This document shows positions 10,562-55,802 of a DNA stretch of 64,000 nt, in pieces (within the stretch, counting starts at the first letter, position 1; each line of letters starts with the position of its first letter). The notes beneath the pieces were generated by a model, which saw nothing but the letters and a program-made list of their open reading frames with translations, made no database searches and was not told the origin of the DNA. The stretch spans positions 2,319,403-2,383,402 of the forward strand of contig CP070696.1 of assembly GCA_020353535.1 (NCBI GenBank). Reading direction: 5' to 3'. The stretch comes from Spirochaetaceae bacterium. Its GTDB lineage: Bacteria; Spirochaetota; Spirochaetia; SZUA-6; DRHE01. The translations under genes and the position numbers were made by a program.

Positions 10562-10883
10562 CAAAGAGAGGTTGAAAGGGCGGTCCAATTTACGTAGGGT
10601 TTTTACAGAAGCAGCGAAGTGCGACAGAAAAGGAATACGGCTCTACTTTATAGGGAACAATCTGGATTGGAATCGAATCGCTGTTTGCCCGGTCCGGGGT
10701 TTTGCGAATGCGGTAGTGAGAAACCGAGAGAAGAGACTTTGTCGGGAAGCCTATCGTCAACTCAAACACAAACTGAAAAGCGGATACGATCTGGTTTTCG
10801 TTCTTTATCCTGGTAAAAGCAGCCTTTCCGATCGGGTTCGTCAGCTCGAGGCGTTATTCGTGCGAAGTGGTCTAATACCGTGA
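10542..10883 (+). CDS. rnpA: Ribonuclease P protein component
   Basis: The 113-residue protein starts [21 protein letters not shown] and has the RNR motif region [19 protein letters not shown] that contacts RNase P RNA. It matures the 5' end of tRNAs. It begins inside the last codons of rpmH and its stop overlaps the GTG start of yidD by four bases (GTGA), so rpmH-rnpA-yidD is one coupled unit. Confidence 0.96.
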
Positions 10884-11089
10884 AATATGCACTCATCTTC
10901 TTCATTACCTTGTATCAGAAACTGTTCTCCCCTTGGTTGCCGAAGAGCTGCCGTTTTACCCCCAGCTGCTCCCAGTATGCAAAGGAGGCTGTTGGTAAAT
11001 ACGGTGCCTTTCACGGTATTTTTCTCGCCGTAAAAAGACTGCTCAAGTGTCATCCCTTCCACGCGGGAGGCTACGATCCTGTTCCCTAA
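10880..11089 (+). CDS. yidD: Membrane protein insertion efficiency factor YidD
   Basis: A 69-residue protein from GTG 10880 with the YidD hallmarks LYQKLFSPWLPKSCRFTPSCSQYAKEAV, LLKCHPFHAGGYDPVP. YidD is a peripheral inner-membrane protein that aids YidC-dependent insertion. It sits in the standard rnpA-yidD-yidC order. A second, exported YidD-domain protein is encoded at 53951-54400. Confidence 0.95.
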   Translation: MKYALIFFITLYQKLFSPWLPKSCRFTPSCSQYAKEAVGKYGAFHGIFLAVKRLLKCHPFHAGGYDPVP

Positions 11090-48131: not shown

Positions 48132-49802
48132 TTAGCCGCTGACCAAGGGCAGGTGCACCCTGAAACAGGCACCCTTCAACTGTCTGCCGGTTGCAGCGCC
48201 GTTAGCGGCCGTTACTCTGCCCCCGTAGCCCTCCACGATAGCCCTGACGATGGCCAGCCCGAGCCCGAGGTGATGTTCCGGGCGCTCGTTGGACTCCGCC
48301 GGTGCGCTATCGGGGCGGTAGCTGAAGAACCTGTGGAAGATCTTCTCCAGATGCTGTTCCGGGATTCCCGGTCCGTCATCCTGGACGGTAATCATTCCCT
48401 GATTGTGGTCCCGGGACAGCTCGATCCTTACTTCTGCGGAGGCGAAGCTCAGGGCATTTTCAAGTAGATTCTCGAGGACCTGGGTCAGCCGTTCGGGAGC
48501 CATGGAAACGGTCAGTGAACCGGCGTTTTCGATCAATCGTACAGGCAGCGAAGAGTTCCTCCGCAGCCTGTGCGCTTCGACCACCTGTCTGACAATTGGG
48601 GTGATCTCTATCGGAGTTCGTTGCTCGTCCTCCAGCTGGGCATCGATCAGGGAGATCTCCCGGACTGCGGCCAGCAGATGCTGCATCCTCTGCACCTCTT
48701 TCTGGATCAAGGCGAGGAAACGATTCCTGTCCTGTACGGATTTTGCCTGGTCGATCATCTCCGCAGCAGATCGGATCGATGCCAGGGGATTCATGAACTC
48801 GTGGGAGATATCCGAGGCAAAGGACTCGACGAACTCGATGTGCCTCTGGAGTTTGCGGGTCATCTCCTCCAGGGATCGCGACAGATCCCCGATCTCATCC
48901 CGGCGGCGGTTGTAGCGGATATGCCCGCGCAACCGGCCCCGATGATCGAGAATCTCTCTGGCCTGTCTGCGCAATTTGCGCACGGGGACCGCGATGGTCG
49001 TGGAGGCCAGCAGGCTCAAAGCCACGGCCACGCCCAGGGAGATGAGGAAGATCGTAAAGATCTCCAGGCGAAGCTCGTACAGGTCCCGCAGGATCCGGTA
49101 TGTGGATTGGGATACCAGTACCGCACCGACCACCGCCTCCCCGCTGCGAACGGGGATGGCGCTGTAGAGAGTGACCGATCGCTGCCCTCCCGTGGAAATC
49201 CGGGTCATGGCACCGTAGCGCCCCGCCAGGGCTTCACGGATTTCCGGACCGAGCAGGATTTCAGTGTTGACGTAGAACTCCGCCGACTCGAGAGGCGCCT
49301 CCGGCGGCCGAAACAGGCGGCGGTACAGCTGTATAGGATAGATGGCGAAGCGGTACAGCAGTCGCCGTTCGGCGGGAATTGGCTCACTGCCGTTTGTCTG
49401 AATTTCCGGGGGAACCTCGTTCGCTTGCCGAGGCGGGGAGATTTCGCTCCGACCCACCTCGGCTTCCTCCCCAACGATCGCCTCCCCGCGCGCTCCCAGG
49501 CGGCTGGAATCGGCCAGCAGCCTGCCTCGGTCATCGACGACCCGCATGCGAGCCTCGTGGCGCTGCTCCAGCTGCTGCAGAATTCTGCGAGCGCTGTCCG
49601 CCTCAAGGGGATCCCGGCCGGAGAGGGCTGAGGCCATGATGCGTCCCTGCTGAACCAGGGCGTGCTCCAGGGAGCGCAGCAGCTGCTTCTCGTAGGTATC
49701 GAGATACAGCAGAGCCGCGATGGGGAGGAACACGATGAGAACGTTGAAGGTGAGCAGCCGTACGGTTATACGGGAGAAGAAGCCGAGGATCTTGTCGATC
49801 AT
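48132..49802 (-). CDS. Sensor histidine kinase, CreC/ChvG-like
   Basis: A 556-residue membrane kinase. Two membrane helices (LLTFNVLIVFLPIAALLYL and IFTIFLISLGVAVALSLLA) flank a periplasmic domain of about 230 residues. A HAMP linker follows, then the phosphoacceptor His334 in ASDISHEFMNPLASI, and the ATPase boxes NALSFASAEV, DDGPGIPEQHLEKIFHRFF and GLGLAIV. Its start overlaps the response regulator stop by four bases. Overall arrangement recalls ChvG and CreC. The divergent creD gene favours a Cre-like envelope stress role. Confidence 0.9.
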   Translation of the reverse strand: MIDKILGFFSRITVRLLTFNVLIVFLPIAALLYLDTYEKQLLRSLEHALVQQGRIMASALSGRDPLEADSARRILQQLEQRHEARMRVVDDRGRLLADSSRLGARGEAIVGEEAEVGRSEISPPRQANEVPPEIQTNGSEPIPAERRLLYRFAIYPIQLYRRLFRPPEAPLESAEFYVNTEILLGPEIREALAGRYGAMTRISTGGQRSVTLYSAIPVRSGEAVVGAVLVSQSTYRILRDLYELRLEIFTIFLISLGVAVALSLLASTTIAVPVRKLRRQAREILDHRGRLRGHIRYNRRRDEIGDLSRSLEEMTRKLQRHIEFVESFASDISHEFMNPLASIRSAAEMIDQAKSVQDRNRFLALIQKEVQRMQHLLAAVREISLIDAQLEDEQRTPIEITPIVRQVVEAHRLRRNSSLPVRLIENAGSLTVSMAPERLTQVLENLLENALSFASAEVRIELSRDHNQGMITVQDDGPGIPEQHLEKIFHRFFSYRPDSAPAESNERPEHHLGLGLAIVRAIVEGYGGRVTAANGAATGRQLKGACFRVHLPLVSG

Positions 49803-50521
49803 ATCCCTGGGTCGGCTCGATAACGGTAGCCGAGACCGTAGATCGTCTCGATGTCGTCAAATCCTAGATCAAGCTGGGCGAGTTTCTTGCGTATGCGCTT
49901 GATGTGTCCATCTATGTTGCGGTCGCTGATGTAATCATCGTAAGGATAACCCTCTTTCAGGAGCTGCTCCCGGGTTTTAGCATAGCCGGGCTGCCGCACC
50001 AAAGCTTCGAGAATGCGGAACTCCGTAACCGTCAGCGGTACGTTCTCTCCGTTCCACCGTACCAGGTGGCGGAATCGATCCAGCTCCAGCGGCCCGCAGC
50101 GCAGGATCTTTCCCTCATCCCCGCTTCCGCCCGCATGATTGGATGCAGCGCGGCGGAACAGGACCTTCACCCGGGCCAGAAGTTCCCGGGTGGAGAAGGG
50201 CTTGCAGAGGTAGTCATCGGCTCCCAGCTCCAACCCCAGCACCCTGTCGAACTCCTCGTCTTTGGAGCTCAGGAAAATCAGGGGAAGGGTTTCCGAGAGG
50301 CTGCGGATCCTGCGACAGAGCTCCAGGCCGTCCATACGGGGCATGATGATATCCAAAATTACCAGATCGGGCAGGCTCTGACGAAAGGCGTTCCAGGCTT
50401 CCTCGCCGTCTTTATAGGCGAGAACCCGATAGCCCTCCTTTTTCAGGGCGTAGCCTACCACTTCCCGGATGTTCTGCTCGTCCTCGACCAGGGCGACCAG
50501 AGGCTCGTTCACAGGCTGCAT
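49799..50521 (-). CDS. OmpR-family response regulator, CreB/ChvI-like
   Basis: About 240 residues from ATG 50521 (MQPVNEPLVALVEDEQNIREVVGYAL). The receiver has the acidic pair ED, phosphoacceptor Asp57 in LVILDIIMPRMDGLEL, Ser/Thr and Lys105-region SSKDEEFDRVLGLELGADDYLCKPFS. The C-terminal winged helix (LTVTEFRILEALVRQPGYAKTREQLL, DRNIDGHIKRIRKKL) binds DNA. No good ribosome binding site precedes 50521, and the frame stays open to 50626 through the GC-rich repeat, but that extension has no domain character. It is divergent from creD, its probable target. Confidence 0.9.
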   Translation of the reverse strand: MQPVNEPLVALVEDEQNIREVVGYALKKEGYRVLAYKDGEEAWNAFRQSLPDLVILDIIMPRMDGLELCRRIRSLSETLPLIFLSSKDEEFDRVLGLELGADDYLCKPFSTRELLARVKVLFRRAASNHAGGSGDEGKILRCGPLELDRFRHLVRWNGENVPLTVTEFRILEALVRQPGYAKTREQLLKEGYPYDDYISDRNIDGHIKRIRKKLAQLDLGFDDIETIYGLGYRYRADPGI

Positions 50522-50560
50522 TTGTAGAATAGTACCACAGCCGGCGGCAGCCTTCCAGGA

Positions 50561-50616
50561 GTACGGTTGCCGGGGTACGGCCGCCGGGGTACGGCCGCCG
50601 GGGTACGGCCGCCACA
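50561..50616. repeat. 14-base tandem repeat, four copies, between the response regulator and creD
   Basis: The unit GTACGGCCGCCGGG starts at 50561, 50575, 50589 and 50603. The first copy has TT for CC and the last decays after GCC. The block lies 40 bases before the regulator start and 100 bases before creD. The unit contains the palindrome CGGCCG. It is either a slippage-made variable tract or a set of phased binding sites. Confidence 0.9.
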
Positions 50617-50717
50617 TTTCCGCCACAATTGTTCACACAATCTGCCAAAGATGGACGGGAAGGAAACCGTCAGTCGCGATAGCCTGGGAAGCGAAACTCA
50701 ACGTCTAGGAGGATCCG

Positions 50718-52154
50718 ATGAAGAAACTCAAGAGTTCGATTCAGGAGAGCAGGAATTGGAGCACCGTGCTCAAGATGGTTCTTATTGGCGTGTTGCTGCT
50801 CGTTTTCCTGATTCCCCTGCAGATGATCCGGGCGCTGGTGGAGGAGCGGAACATGACCCGTCTGGAGGCGGAGGGGGAAATCATCGGCATGTGGGGGGGA
50901 GAGCAGATCATCGCCGGTCCGATGCTGGTCGTACCCTATCTCAAACGGGTCAAGCTCGAGGATGGCAAGCTTGAGGAGTATGTCGAACAGGCCTACTTTC
51001 TTCCCGATACCGTCGGGATCAGCGGTTCCGTGGACACGGACAAGAGAAACCGGGGAATTTATGAGGTCACCGTGTACACTGCGGATCTGCAGGTTACGGG
51101 CATCTTTTCCCAGCCCGATCTCGGTGAATGGAGAATCGCCGAAGAGGATGTGTTTTGGCAGGACGCCGCCCTGATCGTGGAACTCCCGGACATGCGGGGT
51201 TTACAGGAACGGGTGACCCTGTGGTGGGATTCCCGGGACATCCCCTTCTCCGCGGGGCAGGGGGAAGTCGGACTGTACTCCGGAGAAATTCGAGCGCCCC
51301 TGGATTGGGAATCCGTACAGCAGAGTTCCGGGAGCGGGGCTTTCGGCGACGAGGTTTCTGAAACCCCGGGGATTTACGGCTTCTCCTTCAACCTGCATCT
51401 CCAGGGCGGTCGGTCCTTGAGCTTTATGCCTCTTGGGGAGGAAACCCGGGTGCGGCTGACCTCCCCATGGTCCAGTCCCAGTTTCAACGGTGCCTTTCTG
51501 CCGAGCGAGCGATCCTTGGGGGATGAGGGATTCGAGGCGGACTGGTACGTCCTGTCCTTGAATCGCGGCTACGGGCAGCAGTGGCTCCGCGGAGAGGTGG
51601 AAACTGACGCGTTATTGGATTCGGTTTTCGGAGTGGAGCTGATGATTCCGGTGGATACCTACCTGAAATCCCTGCGCTCCGTTAAGTACGGGATTCTCTT
51701 TGTGCTGCTGCCCTTCCTGATTTTTTTTCTCTTCGAGGTTGCCAGTGGTCGCAGGGTGCATCCCTTTCAGTACCTTCTGGCCGGACTGGCGGTATGTTTG
51801 TTCTACCTGCTGCTGGTGTCGGTATCCGAACACCTCAGCTTCGACTGGACCTACCTGCTGGCCAGTCTGGCAACGATCGCGCTGATCACCTTCTATTCCA
51901 GTGCCGTTCTTGCCGCCTGGCGCCGCGCCTGGGCGATGGCTCTGGTATTGGCGGCGAGCTACCTGTTTCTCTACGTCGCCCTCAAATCAGAGGACTTCGC
52001 CCTTTTGATCGGCTCTCTGGGACTGTTTGTAATTCTGACGGGGGTGATGGTGCTGACCCGTCGCATCGACTGGTACAGCGTGGGCCCGCGGCGTAACGGC
52101 GCATCGAAGGTCAACGGCGATCCTAGTATTGCCGGAGAAAAACCGAGTCCTTGA
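50718..52154 (+). CDS. creD: Inner membrane protein CreD
   Basis: A 478-residue protein with one N-terminal membrane helix (VLKMVLIGVLLLVFLIPLQMI), a periplasmic domain of about 290 residues, and a C-terminal cluster of five or six helices starting at SLRSVKYGILFVLLPFLIFFLFEV. The motifs RALVEERNMTRLEAEGEI and the LSFMPLG..TRVRLTSPW.SPSFNGAFLP region are typical of CreD/Cet. CreD belongs to the CreBC regulon and affects envelope integrity and peptide resistance in other bacteria, but its mechanism is unknown. AGGAGGATCC precedes the ATG. Confidence 0.93.
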   Translation: MKKLKSSIQESRNWSTVLKMVLIGVLLLVFLIPLQMIRALVEERNMTRLEAEGEIIGMWGGEQIIAGPMLVVPYLKRVKLEDGKLEEYVEQAYFLPDTVGISGSVDTDKRNRGIYEVTVYTADLQVTGIFSQPDLGEWRIAEEDVFWQDAALIVELPDMRGLQERVTLWWDSRDIPFSAGQGEVGLYSGEIRAPLDWESVQQSSGSGAFGDEVSETPGIYGFSFNLHLQGGRSLSFMPLGEETRVRLTSPWSSPSFNGAFLPSERSLGDEGFEADWYVLSLNRGYGQQWLRGEVETDALLDSVFGVELMIPVDTYLKSLRSVKYGILFVLLPFLIFFLFEVASGRRVHPFQYLLAGLAVCLFYLLLVSVSEHLSFDWTYLLASLATIALITFYSSAVLAAWRRAWAMALVLAASYLFLYVALKSEDFALLIGSLGLFVILTGVMVLTRRIDWYSVGPRRNGASKVNGDPSIAGEKPSP

Positions 52155-52174: not shown

Positions 52175-52206
52175 AAGCCGGCTTTCCTGCGTGCACCAGC
52201 CGGTTT
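52175..52206. terminator. Possible bidirectional hairpin between creD and the exported-protein operon
   Basis: An 8-base stem (AAGCCGGC with GCCGGTTT, one G-U pair) and a 16-base loop, in the 50-base gap between convergent genes. The T stretch is short, so strength is uncertain. Confidence 0.4.
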
Positions 52207-53101
52207 ATTCGGCTTCCAGCAGAGACAATACCTCGTCCATGATCTGCGCCTGAAAGCGTTGATCCACGGCTCGGCTTTTCCTTTCCGCTGCGCGGCGGGC
52301 ATTGTCCCTGTTTCCCAGGTAGTAGCGACGGAAGGGATAGAGGAACAGCAATACCCCCTCCAGGTAGTATTCGTGCATTATGGCGGTGACGATCAGGGTG
52401 GCCAGGCCGGCGTTCAAGGCAAGGGCGTTGAGGGCGTCCCAGGGATCACCGGCGTACAACTGTCCGCTGCCGGGCAGAATCGTCGAGAGCACCACAGCGG
52501 TACCGGCTGACCGTCTCTTGGCGCTGCGGGCTTCCGAGAGAAGCTCTTTGAGCTTCTCGATCTTCGTCTGCGTTTGCGGATCCGCGACCTGCGCCTCGGG
52601 AAAGGCCCGCTCGAGTTCTTCCTCTGCCTGATTCCAGTGTCCTCGATACACGTAGGTGACACAGAGATACAGAGCCACCCGTTTTCCGTCGATCTCAGAA
52701 AAGTCCCGCAGACGAAGCAGATGGAGCTCTGCTTCGTTTTCGCGACCGCCGGCCAGCAGTGCGGTGATCAGTGCGAACTCCCTGTCCTCGATCTCGCTGA
52801 GGGAAGAGGCGGTTTGAATCGATTGCCGCAGATGAAAAAACGCCTCGGACCAACGCTCCTGAGCCTGGTAGCAGGAGGCGATTCTTACGTGAACGGAACT
52901 GGCCGATTGCCCCTTCGTGTCGAAAAACAAGACCCGTTTGTATTCAGCGATGGCCAGGTCAAAAGCCCCGGATTGGGCATACCTGTCTCCCATGGCCAGA
53001 GCCGGATCCGCGGCAGTATCTGTGCTATCCGCCTGGACTGCAGGGCAGATCGAAACAAGGGCCAAGGCTGCACTGAGGATGAGATTTGTGCTACGGAACA
53101 A
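52205..53101 (-). CDS. Exported TPR protein with TM2/DUF5683-like C-terminus (copy 1)
   Basis: A 298-residue protein from TTG 53101, which has CGGAG seven bases upstream. A signal peptide (LILSAALALVSICPAVQA) is followed by TPR-like helices (GDRYAQSGAFDLAIAEYKRVLFF, ASCYQAQERWSEAFFHLRQSI). A short basic stretch then leads to SAGTAVVLSTILPGSGQLYAGDPWDALNALALNAGL, the LPGxGQxYxG motif of small two-helix envelope proteins, and a positively charged tail. It is the last gene of the five-gene operon and a paralogue of the gene before it, which it overlaps by 11 bases. Confidence 0.8.
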   Translation of the reverse strand: MFRSTNLILSAALALVSICPAVQADSTDTAADPALAMGDRYAQSGAFDLAIAEYKRVLFFDTKGQSASSVHVRIASCYQAQERWSEAFFHLRQSIQTASSLSEIEDREFALITALLAGGRENEAELHLLRLRDFSEIDGKRVALYLCVTYVYRGHWNQAEEELERAFPEAQVADPQTQTKIEKLKELLSEARSAKRRSAGTAVVLSTILPGSGQLYAGDPWDALNALALNAGLATLIVTAIMHEYYLEGVLLFLYPFRRYYLGNRDNARRAAERKSRAVDQRFQAQIMDEVLSLLEAE

Positions 53102-53954
53102 GAAGAAACTCCGAGCAGGGAGGAATAGCCTCGACCACCTCCTGAAGGAGGGCCTCTTCCCGAAGTCGATTGTATCGTCGGGCCGATACGATTGAGCCGT
53201 AGATGTTTCCGATGTGCAGTATGCCCCCGGCGGAGGCGTAGACCCAGCCCCGAACCGATTCCACCCCTTCGGAGCGGAAGCTCAAAAAGGAGAGGGTTCC
53301 GAAGAGGCCGATAAACAGGAGGGATTGCATTCCATCCCCGTACTCCTCCGCGTAGAATTTCCCGAGGCCCGGGACAATCGAGGAGAGAATACCCGCCGCT
53401 GCCGGACTTTTTCGGCGCATGGTGGAGCCCTCTACGGCCAGTTTTCGTAAGGGCTCCATCTGAGGGATGGCGGGGGCGGCGAGCAGCGCCTCCGCCTGCT
53501 GCCACTGCCCCAGCATCATCAAATTCGCAGCGGTGAGTATGATCGGCTCGGGCGTTCCACTCCAGCTGTGATGGCTCTGCAGTAGCTCAAGAGACTCGGC
53601 GTACTGCTTCATTCTGAAGTAGGTCAGGCCTAGTTCATAGATCCCCCGTTCCTGGTCGATCCCAATTTTTGAGCTTCGCAGAAACGAATAGAACAGCTCC
53701 AGAGAGCGTTCATAGGCTGCCCCACACTGAAATGCCTTGGCGGAGCGGAACAGGATCTCCCGATGACTGGGATCCTCCCCACCCTGTAGGAACAGATACC
53801 GCTCATACTCGTAGGCGGCGCGCAAGTAATCCTGTTCCTGGAACAGGTGATCGGCAAAGAGCAGGACCGAGGCCGGGCTGTAGTAATCGGGGGCGTCCGG
53901 CCTGGCGGTCGCGGAACAGAGGATCGACACTACGATCGTTACCAAGATTCTCAC
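53091..53954 (-). CDS. Exported TPR protein with TM2/DUF5683-like C-terminus (copy 2)
   Basis: A 287-residue protein from GTG 53954, overlapping the previous stop by four bases (GTGA). A signal peptide is followed by TPR-like repeats (ADHLFQEQDYLRAAYEYERYLF, SAKAFQCGAAYERSLELFYSFL, GLTYFRMKQYAESLELLQ). Then comes SPAAAGILSSIVPGLGKFYAEEYGDGMQSLLFIG, the same Pro-Gly-x-Gly-x-x-Tyr motif as in its neighbour. The tail is weakly hydrophobic and ends PCSEFLLVP. The order and motif show that the two genes arose by duplication, though the proteins now differ strongly. Confidence 0.8.
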   Translation of the reverse strand: MRILVTIVVSILCSATARPDAPDYYSPASVLLFADHLFQEQDYLRAAYEYERYLFLQGGEDPSHREILFRSAKAFQCGAAYERSLELFYSFLRSSKIGIDQERGIYELGLTYFRMKQYAESLELLQSHHSWSGTPEPIILTAANLMMLGQWQQAEALLAAPAIPQMEPLRKLAVEGSTMRRKSPAAAGILSSIVPGLGKFYAEEYGDGMQSLLFIGLFGTLSFLSFRSEGVESVRGWVYASAGGILHIGNIYGSIVSARRYNRLREEALLQEVVEAIPPCSEFLLVP

Positions 53955-54400
53955 TGTGTTTCTGACCTGCCTGCCCTGTCCGGAACAGGATCGAGGAGTT
54001 TTCGCCGGATCGGGTCGTAGGGATACAGTTCCCGGTCGGACCCGTTGCAGCGCAGATAGCGGTCGATTGTCATAAGCGAACCGATGATTGCCCCGTGCTC
54101 CGAGAGTGCGAGCTTAGCGTATTCCGAACAGGAGGGGTGGAACATGCAGCGAGGTCCGTCCTGACTGGAAAGAACCACCTGATACAGGCGCAGAAAGGCC
54201 AGGCCGGCCATCTTCAATTCATTAGACTCATCTTTTAGATCGAGAGGCGATTTGGCGGACGGATCCGGCAGATCCTGTCCGCTGCGAATGCCTTGAACGA
54301 AGTAAAGGTTGCTCAAATCATCCGAGTGGACGATTGCAGCCGAGAGAATGAGCAGGCAAACCACTAGAGGCTGGAGCAGGGGCTTGTTCCATCTTACCAT
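53951..54400 (-). CDS. Exported YidD-domain protein
   Basis: A 149-residue protein. It starts with a signal peptide (MVRWNKPLLQPLVVCLLILSAAIVHS). After about 55 residues comes a YidD-like domain: FLRLYQVVLSSQDGPRCMFHPSCSEYAKLALSEHGAIIGSLMTIDRYLRCN and ...LDPVPD. The paired cysteines and the F.PSCS.YA core are the YidD signature, also seen in the cytosolic-face YidD at 10880. Ordinary YidD is about 70-90 residues without a signal, so this copy is re-targeted across the inner membrane. The start overlaps the LolA-like stop by seven bases. Role unknown. Confidence 0.85.
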   Translation of the reverse strand: MVRWNKPLLQPLVVCLLILSAAIVHSDDLSNLYFVQGIRSGQDLPDPSAKSPLDLKDESNELKMAGLAFLRLYQVVLSSQDGPRCMFHPSCSEYAKLALSEHGAIIGSLMTIDRYLRCNGSDRELYPYDPIRRKLLDPVPDRAGRSETQ

Positions 54401-55131
54401 TTCAGCTCTTCCACCGATACGTCTGCCGGCAATTCAAAATCGGTCACCTCCCGAGGCAGGCTTTCGTTGATGCGGTGATCGAAATAGCGGATCTCCTCCC
54501 GAATCTCCTTTTCCCCGTTCTTCTGCTGGATGAGGATCCTGGCGGGAAAACTCGGTTCGAGATCCTCGAGATAATCGAGATAGGTTACCCGGGTGAGCAT
54601 TTTGCCCCGAGGATCGTAGATCTCGAGATACAGAGGATGCACCTCCCGTATTCCTTTTTGCGTTCCAATGTGGGCTTCACCGATATAGGAGCGCAGAGCT
54701 CGGGGCGCTGACCAGACCGTTATCAGGATGTCTGCCCGTTTGCGGTTCTCCGTCAGGATGAATCCCGCATCGGACAAACCGAAATCGTCGCGCACCAGGC
54801 CGATGAACGATTGGGCGAAGGGGATCATCAGGCGGTTCCGGCTGATGAAACGGAAGGCTTTTCCCTCTCGCGGATAGTAGATCAGCAGATCCGTGCCTTC
54901 GAATACGGTCCACTGCAACACCGGCGACTTGACTTTGATCAACACATCTTCCGGAGCTTGAAAATAGAGGATTCCCTGTATTTGCTCCTCTCCATCGGCC
55001 GAGATGGTAGTTCTGCTGAAACCGATAGCAAGGGTTTCAACGGACTGGCAATAAAGGGGGGTTGAAGCCGGCAGCAGGATAAGAAAAAGCGCGGTAAAGA
55101 TCAGCAGTAGGATGGAGCGCTGAGTCGACAC
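54394..55131 (-). CDS. Exported LolA-like outer-membrane lipoprotein-sorting family protein
   Basis: About 245 residues from GTG 55131, seven bases after the previous stop. A hydrophobic leader (SILLLIFTALFLILLPASTPLYCQ) is followed by a beta-rich domain: EEQIQGILYFQAPEDVLIKVKSPVLQWTVFEGTDLLIYYPREGKAFRFISRN, the pattern of LolA/LppX-type lipid-binding half-barrels. The second part (EIYDPRGKMLTRVTYLDYLEDLEPSFPARILI) continues the sheet. Such proteins carry lipoproteins or lipids across the periplasm. The frame is open further upstream but overlaps the Cys-rich gene. Confidence 0.75.
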   Translation of the reverse strand: MSTQRSILLLIFTALFLILLPASTPLYCQSVETLAIGFSRTTISADGEEQIQGILYFQAPEDVLIKVKSPVLQWTVFEGTDLLIYYPREGKAFRFISRNRLMIPFAQSFIGLVRDDFGLSDAGFILTENRKRADILITVWSAPRALRSYIGEAHIGTQKGIREVHPLYLEIYDPRGKMLTRVTYLDYLEDLEPSFPARILIQQKNGEKEIREEIRYFDHRINESLPREVTDFELPADVSVEELKW

Positions 55132-55138
55132 GATGAGG

Positions 55139-55654
55139 TTACTGGGAACTGCAGCCCAAATCAGGAGAGCAGTTGAAGGTCTGGGAACAGCTGTCGGAAC
55201 AGTTCTGCCCAATTGTGGAACCACAGCTGTCGGCTGCGGATTCAGCAGCCCGCACCGCCAGCACACCGCCTATCACAACGGCTACTGCCCAGACGCCGAA
55301 ACCGATCAGGGAATAGTAGAAGTTCTTTGGTTTGGCCTTTTGTCTGTATCCGTCGGTGTATCCTTCAACATACGCTACTGATTTACCGATCAGACGCGTC
55401 CCCGGAACCTTGGGATTGATGACCCAGGGCAGGATGATCCCGATCGGTCCCAGCAATAGCCCCGACAAGACCCAAACGCCGTTTCCCTCCGCATCAGCCT
55501 GTCCGTCTATCCATCCTTGGTTGTACTCTTCAATAAAGCTGCCCGAATCGGCTGACTGCTGTTGGGCAACGACCGGAGCGATGTATAGGCACAGGATCAG
55601 AACCAGGAAGATACTTCTCTGGAAGGTTTTACGATGATCCAAAGTATTGATCAT
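55139..55654 (-). CDS. Exported membrane protein with cysteine-rich tail
   Basis: A 171-residue protein, first gene of the operon. It has a signal or anchor (RSIFLVLILCLYIAPVVAQ), a helix (GVWVLSGLLLGPIGIILPWVI), the segment AYVEGYTDGYRQKAKPKNFYYS, a second helix (IGFGVWAVAVVIGGVLAV) and a tail with five cysteines (DSCGSTIGQNCSDSCSQTFNCSPDLGC). The acidic Cys tail could form disulfides in the periplasm. I do not recognise the family. Confidence 0.7.
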   Translation of the reverse strand: MINTLDHRKTFQRSIFLVLILCLYIAPVVAQQQSADSGSFIEEYNQGWIDGQADAEGNGVWVLSGLLLGPIGIILPWVINPKVPGTRLIGKSVAYVEGYTDGYRQKAKPKNFYYSLIGFGVWAVAVVIGGVLAVRAAESAADSCGSTIGQNCSDSCSQTFNCSPDLGCSSQ

Positions 55655-55802
55655 TTCCGTCCCCCTTCCGCGCCGTTTGCGTGCTGGTACATCGCTTTAC
55701 TAAGTATAACCGATTTGTAGACCATAGCAAGGCATGGACCAGTTGAGGTGCTACGCTGATGTTACTTTGGAATCCGAGGACCGCACACTGCCGATTGCTG
55801 TT

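Follow-up and report, generated by a model that had tools for sequence, protein, structure and literature searches.

A stretch of 64,000 nucleotides from the genome of a Spirochaetaceae bacterium (contig CP070696.1, positions 2,319,403 to 2,383,402; hereafter the window) carries a cassette of five closely packed minus-strand open reading frames (ORFs) at positions 52205-55654, the third of which encodes a YidD homolog with a signal-like N-terminus (YidDx). Read along the minus strand, the first gene (HP, 55139..55654) encodes a hairpin protein of 171 aa with a signal-like N-terminus, a hydrophobic hairpin and a Cys-rich tail, and is followed by the gene of a LolA-like protein (LolAx, 54394..55131), for which a GTG start is read from the sequence. 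The YidDx gene (53951..54400, ATG start) encodes 149 aa, with the YidD domain at residues 65-123 (54032..54208, from the PF01809 and TIGR00278 match coordinates). The last two genes, TPR1 (53091..53954, GTG start) and TPR2 (52205..53101, TTG start), each encode a signal-like N-terminus, a TPR region and a C-terminal hydrophobic module, which carries the motif PGLGKFY in TPR1 (residues 195-201, 53352..53372) and PGSGQLY in TPR2 (residues 210-216, 52454..52474), as located by sequence and family alignment. The hairpin protein gene (stop at 55139) is separated by 7 bases from the LolA-like gene (GTG at 55131), and the next three junctions are overlaps of 7 bases (stop at 54394, ATG of YidDx at 54400), 4 bases (stop at 53951, GTG of TPR1 at 53954) and 11 bases (stop at 53091, TTG of TPR2 at 53101). 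These coordinates and junctions bear out the five tightly joined genes described in an earlier sequence-only reading of the window.

YidDx matches PF01809 at 64 bits (E = 1.1e-17, cut-off 27) and TIGR00278 at 67 bits (cut-off 40); judged by these profiles, it is a genuine YidD paralogue, above both curated family cut-offs. A hydrophobic segment, VVCLLILSAAIV, lies close to its start, so that the description of the third gene as a YidD domain with a signal peptide holds for the domain and, as far as hydropathy tells, for the signal. The sequence-only reading was also right about a separate ordinary YidD: two YidD matches at E ≤ 0.001 were found in the genome, YidDx and a canonical, cytoplasmic-type housekeeping copy on the plus strand of the window (10880..11089, PF01809 105 bits). 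YidDx keeps the homologous domain of the YidD family (PF01809/TIGR00278), with the C-x-F-x-P-S/T-C-S core and the later R-x-x-R/K-C region, but it differs from canonical YidD in a long N-terminal signal-like extension, an extra C-terminal tail, a near-neutral charge, and D/E-R where the canonical protein has K-R. Among 51 exported and 28 canonical YidD copies, which are not mutually independent sequences, an upstream hydrophobic core was seen by hydropathy in 51/51 exported but only 1/28 canonical copies, and an acidic residue directly precedes the conserved Arg in 50/51 and 0/28, respectively. The mean charge of the YidD domain is +1.5 (sd 2.8) in the exported and +6.8 (sd 1.5) in the canonical copies (P = 2.5e-11, Mann-Whitney test). 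The second Cys is present in 50 of the 51 exported copies (the first Cys served as the anchor of the domain, and its conservation was thus not independently tested), and the third Cys is missing from some exported branches. In a tree of 60 columns, the exported and canonical copies fall on opposite sides of one branch with a support of only 61; a single origin of exported YidDs is compatible with this tree but unproven. The AlphaFold2 (AF2) model of YidDx has a confident core, with pLDDT blocks near 90; a fold search with this model found nothing in the PDB at E < 3, and nothing on the mechanism is therefore learnt from it. PDB sequence searches with YidDx and canonical YidD also returned no matches, and no solved YidD structure was found in this way.

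Canonical YidD is placed at the cytoplasmic face beside YidC. The canonical copies at L040, L046 and L047 sit between rnpA-like and yidC-like ORFs, whereas the cassette copies lie elsewhere and are partnered or fused with a TPR protein. On genomic location and the signal-like segment, we reject YidDx as a part of the canonical YidC/YidD insertion system. A different possibility is an accessory of the Sec/YidC insertase on the periplasmic side, in which YidDx would aid the folding or insertion of inner-membrane proteins from the outer face and the TPR proteins would recruit clients. The YidD homology of YidDx agrees with such a role, and a division of labour would be possible because a canonical YidD (88-111 bits) also occurs in 10 of the 12 non-spirochaete cassette genomes checked. 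However, the cassette is not beside rnpA/yidC in the examined loci, unlike the canonical copies, its recurrent partners are of outer-membrane or periplasmic types with no insertase parts among them, and the charge shift together with the KR-to-DR change suggests different contacts; we consider this explanation unlikely.

In most of the fetched loci, YidDx is located immediately before TPR1, and LolA is often missing. In five genomes (L139, L140, L141, L143 and L144), YidD and TPR1 share a single ORF of 422-446 aa, in which the YidD match scores 43-52 bits. Such natural fusion, read from gene structure, is strong evidence that YidD and TPR1 cooperate and are on the same side of the membrane. 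By gene content, the core of the system is exported YidD plus TPR1, often with TPR2, and the LolA-like and hairpin proteins are frequent yet dispensable partners; the five-gene unit of the sequence-only reading is therefore one recurring variant rather than a set fixed at five. Pairwise sequence distances are correlated across the five families (r = 0.59-0.80, Mantel P = 0.0005), which, as no control gene was included, indicates co-inheritance and not co-adaptation. Both TPR1 and TPR2 carry TPR-type matches in a library scan, and their family alignments show invariant P195, G196, G198, K199 and Y201 in TPR1 and invariant P210, G211, G213, Q214 and Y216 in TPR2. The PG-x-G-x-x-Y start and the hydrophobic segments are shared with TM2 and DUF5683 modules, but the modules in TPR1 and TPR2 are attached to signal-led TPR regions and their DUF5683 and TM2 matches are below the curated cut-offs (19.7 vs 26.7 and 18.8 vs 27.9 bits). 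TPR1-like genes without an adjacent YidD were seen at L134:4965-5777 and L135:4662-5516, beside a MerR-like gene and, by eye, an apparent apolipoprotein N-acyltransferase gene. A second TPR1/TPR2-like pair without YidD is present in the phylum of L072 (L175:4948-6863; also L176, L181 and L182), and the pair in L175 is near ORFs that by eye resemble fmt, def and lspA.

The sequence-only reading had proposed a search for conserved gene order, and the order hairpin protein, LolA-like protein, YidDx, TPR1, TPR2 indeed recurs in Spirochaetota, Ignavibacteria/Kapaibacteria, Zixibacteria and Cloacimonadota, with the genes not scattered. Among the relatives, all five genes stand in this order in G005 and G013 and, in pieces, in G034, four do so in G042, and three in G007, G010 and G015. 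The LolA-like gene of G034 lies in several broken pieces on a 3.1-kb contig (L011), owing to assembly errors or decay. A scan of named species genomes for exported YidD gave 16 loci, which besides Spirochaetes are labelled Ignavibacteria, Kapaibacterium, Zixibacteria, Electryonea, Cloacimonadota, Poribacteria and Cyanobacteria UBA8530, with one unclassified bacterium and one metagenome-assembled genome labelled Actinomycetota. The cassette proteins of the latter (L063, JAACEJ010000061.1) group with FCB-type loci, and its contig is possibly misbinned. Most of the 16 loci are in full five-gene order, and some lack upstream or downstream genes or are ended by a contig edge. The cassette is also present in single-contig genomes of the class Ignavibacteria. 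At a sampling threshold of E ≤ 1e-12, at which weak matches may be unrelated TPR proteins, the TPR1 profile was found in 31/149 genomes in the class of L061, 20/118 in the phylum of L069, 12/118 in the phylum of L062, 1/18 in the class of L073, and 77/79 in the Poribacteria-labelled phylum of L072. Most primary loci fetched from this last phylum contain the LolA-like gene, YidDx and TPR1 in that order, mostly without TPR2 alongside, and the cassette is apparently core in one phylum of uncultured bacteria, as far as these profiles show. The LolA-like profile is rare (3/296 genomes in the spirochaete sample and 4/247 in the phylum of L061). Its rarity in spirochaetes would be expected if ordinary exported genes had come together by chance and the YidD domain were a remnant without function, but the cross-phylum order, the fusions, the conserved residues and the near-universality in one phylum contradict this explanation, which we regard as very improbable.

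The LolA-like protein scores 18.7 bits against PF03548 (cut-off 23.6) and 15.9 bits against TIGR00547 (cut-off 112), and the family members tested are also below the PF03548 cut-off. Its AF2 model, built from 11 homologues, has a mean pLDDT of 84.7, and the top PDB matches of this model in Foldseek belong to the LolA superfamily, the first being Pseudomonas aeruginosa LolA (E = 4e-11), with the best query-normalised TM-scores of ~0.58-0.60 for NE2245, 3bk5, Porphyromonas gingivalis LolA3 and LolB. A profile search of the PDB with the LolA-like family also returned LolA-family proteins in 6/6 matches. The predicted structure of the protein thus has the LolA-superfamily fold, and the name given to it in the sequence-only reading stands despite the weak sequence match. 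A separate LolA above the cut-off is present elsewhere in most cassette genomes, including the window genome (C1:178623, 45.8 bits), and the cassette protein is therefore a paralogue; with its own score below the cut-off, we reject it as the housekeeping LolA. The predicted fold is shared with LolA/LolB carriers, including Bacteroidota LolA3, but the cassette protein differs from them in its score below the PF03548 cut-off and in being encoded together with YidDx, the LolA-like gene being directly upstream of YidDx in fetched loci with both. The Arg before Pro in the LolA loop is not kept in the LolA-like family; Helicobacter pylori LolA has Ala in the same alignment, and LolA3 likewise lacks the LolA Arg and the LolB Leu (PMC13103446). 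A paralogue distinct from the housekeeping LolA might also serve the transport or modification of lipid rather than protein, for example on a specialised lipid route of the outer membrane, and flexirubin transport has been proposed for LolA-fold paralogues (PMC11885536). We find a lipid system quite unlikely, given that no lipid-biosynthesis gene is recurrent beside the cassette and many cassettes lack LolA.

The hairpin protein has no convincing library match, yet its hydrophobic hairpin is kept across phyla in the family alignment, with the conserved motifs G..G, P..P and LIGKS/Y..Y.D.Y. The sequence-only reading had called it a Cys-tailed membrane protein; the tail is present but lineage-specific, common to close relatives only, and the hairpin is the part conserved across phyla. 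A radical-SAM-type Cys-repeat peptide was rejected for the tail, as the match is weak and the tail not conserved. Hairpin-protein genes in triplicate were seen upstream of the LolA-like gene at L170:1233-4252 and L172:1559-4789.

The partners of the core vary among lineages. In L064, L070 and L081, a hairpin-like and a CsgG/LpoB-like domain are joined in a single protein. CsgG/TolB_N-like proteins are encoded upstream in L137 and L138, the latter with a weak match to an outer-membrane protein (OMP) barrel at its C-terminus, and within one spirochaete family, three genera have a divergent Omp85-like neighbour of exported YidD. These neighbours raise the possibility of a secretion or surface-structure system, with the CsgG/LpoB-like and beta-barrel partners as the outer-membrane exit and YidDx-TPR as the inner-membrane platform. 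However, CsgG/LpoB/TolB_N-type domains are present in a minority of loci, the CsgG similarity covers only part of the domain, and no secreted substrate gene is conserved; moreover, unlike in curli systems, there is no CsgG homologue among the five window proteins and no curli genes were noticed beside the CsgG-like partners. Secretion thus seems to us an unlikely function. The Omp85-like proteins are of ~375 aa (L034:5090-6253, L036:6100-7224 and L037:2995-4125; 40-44 bits in two, cut-off 200), and their loci carry no LolA-like or hairpin genes. In several genomes from the phyla Zixibacteria and Cloacimonadota, the gene after TPR1 encodes a signal-led protein of ~170-190 aa (L139:3634-4173, L143:4109-4648, L133:6291-6797 and L142:3421-3984), with no Pfam match and the pattern PAGT...DG...I.AGA...VDG.

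Upstream of the hairpin protein gene in the window lies a sigma-70-like promoter match, TTGCTA-16-TATACT (55703..55730, minus strand), although the count of such matches in the region is no better than in shuffles. A CreD-like membrane protein ORF (50718-52154, plus strand) adjoins the cassette and a response-regulator ORF (49799-50626, minus strand) is near it, both recognized by eye and neither beside the cassette in relatives. No anti-phage defence model of PADLOC was matched by the cassette, and a search for its carriage on plasmids gave no matches.

The homology, the conserved order, the YidD-TPR1 fusions, the predicted LolA fold, the signal-like segments and the co-inheritance together lead us to a reading that we hold to be a little short of probable, namely that the cassette in the window is one form of a widespread envelope system centred on an exported YidD, which forms a periplasm-facing complex at the inner membrane. 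YidDx and TPR1, often with TPR2, would exit the cytoplasm via their signal peptides and assemble into a complex anchored in the inner membrane and facing the periplasm, in which the PG-x-G-x-x-Y hydrophobic modules may anchor TPR1 and TPR2 and the TPRs may bind partners. YidDx, without the strong positive charge of the canonical protein, would work at the periplasmic surface of the membrane. In the five-gene variant, the LolA-fold carrier could collect hydrophobic or acylated cargo, either lipid or lipoprotein, from the complex and carry it in the direction of the outer membrane. The hairpin protein may be an additional membrane or outer-membrane element, as may its fused CsgG/LpoB-like form. 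The recurrent partners (LolA-like, CsgG/LpoB-like, OMP-barrel and Omp85-like), classified by sequence, are of periplasmic or outer-membrane types and fit an envelope machine such as the one suggested by the sequence-only reading, whose assembly role and lipoprotein cargo are only inferred. The likeliest function would be envelope assembly or the trafficking of acylated cargo, for which we infer the topology, the complex formation, the cargo and the direction of transport.

Several observations weigh against this reading. The signal-like segments were called from hydropathy alone. The Pro-Gly-x-Gly-x-x-Tyr motif of the sequence-only reading is present in both TPR proteins, but two helices per module is a tentative count, as TPR1 shows three weakly hydrophobic segments, and the flank beyond the last of them is rich in Lys/Arg and in acidic residues, which bears on the membrane topology. 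Common descent alone would also yield correlated distances, and clustering of neighbours for a substrate gene found nothing recurrent beyond the named partners. Because the LolA-like and hairpin genes are missing from many loci, lipid or lipoprotein carriage cannot be the core function everywhere.

The components belong to known folds, and the whole system fits no known kind tested and is apparently undescribed. No system of this make-up was known to the sequence-only reading, and none was found in the open-access literature, which holds no description of exported YidD, YidD-TPR fusions or the cassette, although subscription journals or preprints may contain an account of it. The papers on Bacteroidota LolA/LolB paralogues do not mention YidD (PMC11885536, PMC13103446). 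Because TIGR00278 labels the exported YidDs equivalogs, calling them by the standard name "membrane protein insertion efficiency factor YidD" probably misleads. YidD is widespread and, to our knowledge, its mechanism is unsolved; an exported branch that has a constant partner, to which it is naturally fused in some genomes, provides a handle on the action and target of the YidD domain. It is possible, though rather doubtful, that the cassette represents a new envelope machine of diderms and belongs to the core genome in at least one phylum. YidD would here have been relocated across the inner membrane, where with the TPR proteins it would act as a periplasm-facing insertion or hand-off device and, together with a dedicated LolA-type carrier, take part in outer-membrane construction. 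Many uncultured two-membrane bacteria carry the cassette, which points to an unknown cell-envelope machine and is a sign of something overlooked in the way that some bacteria assemble or provision their outer envelope.

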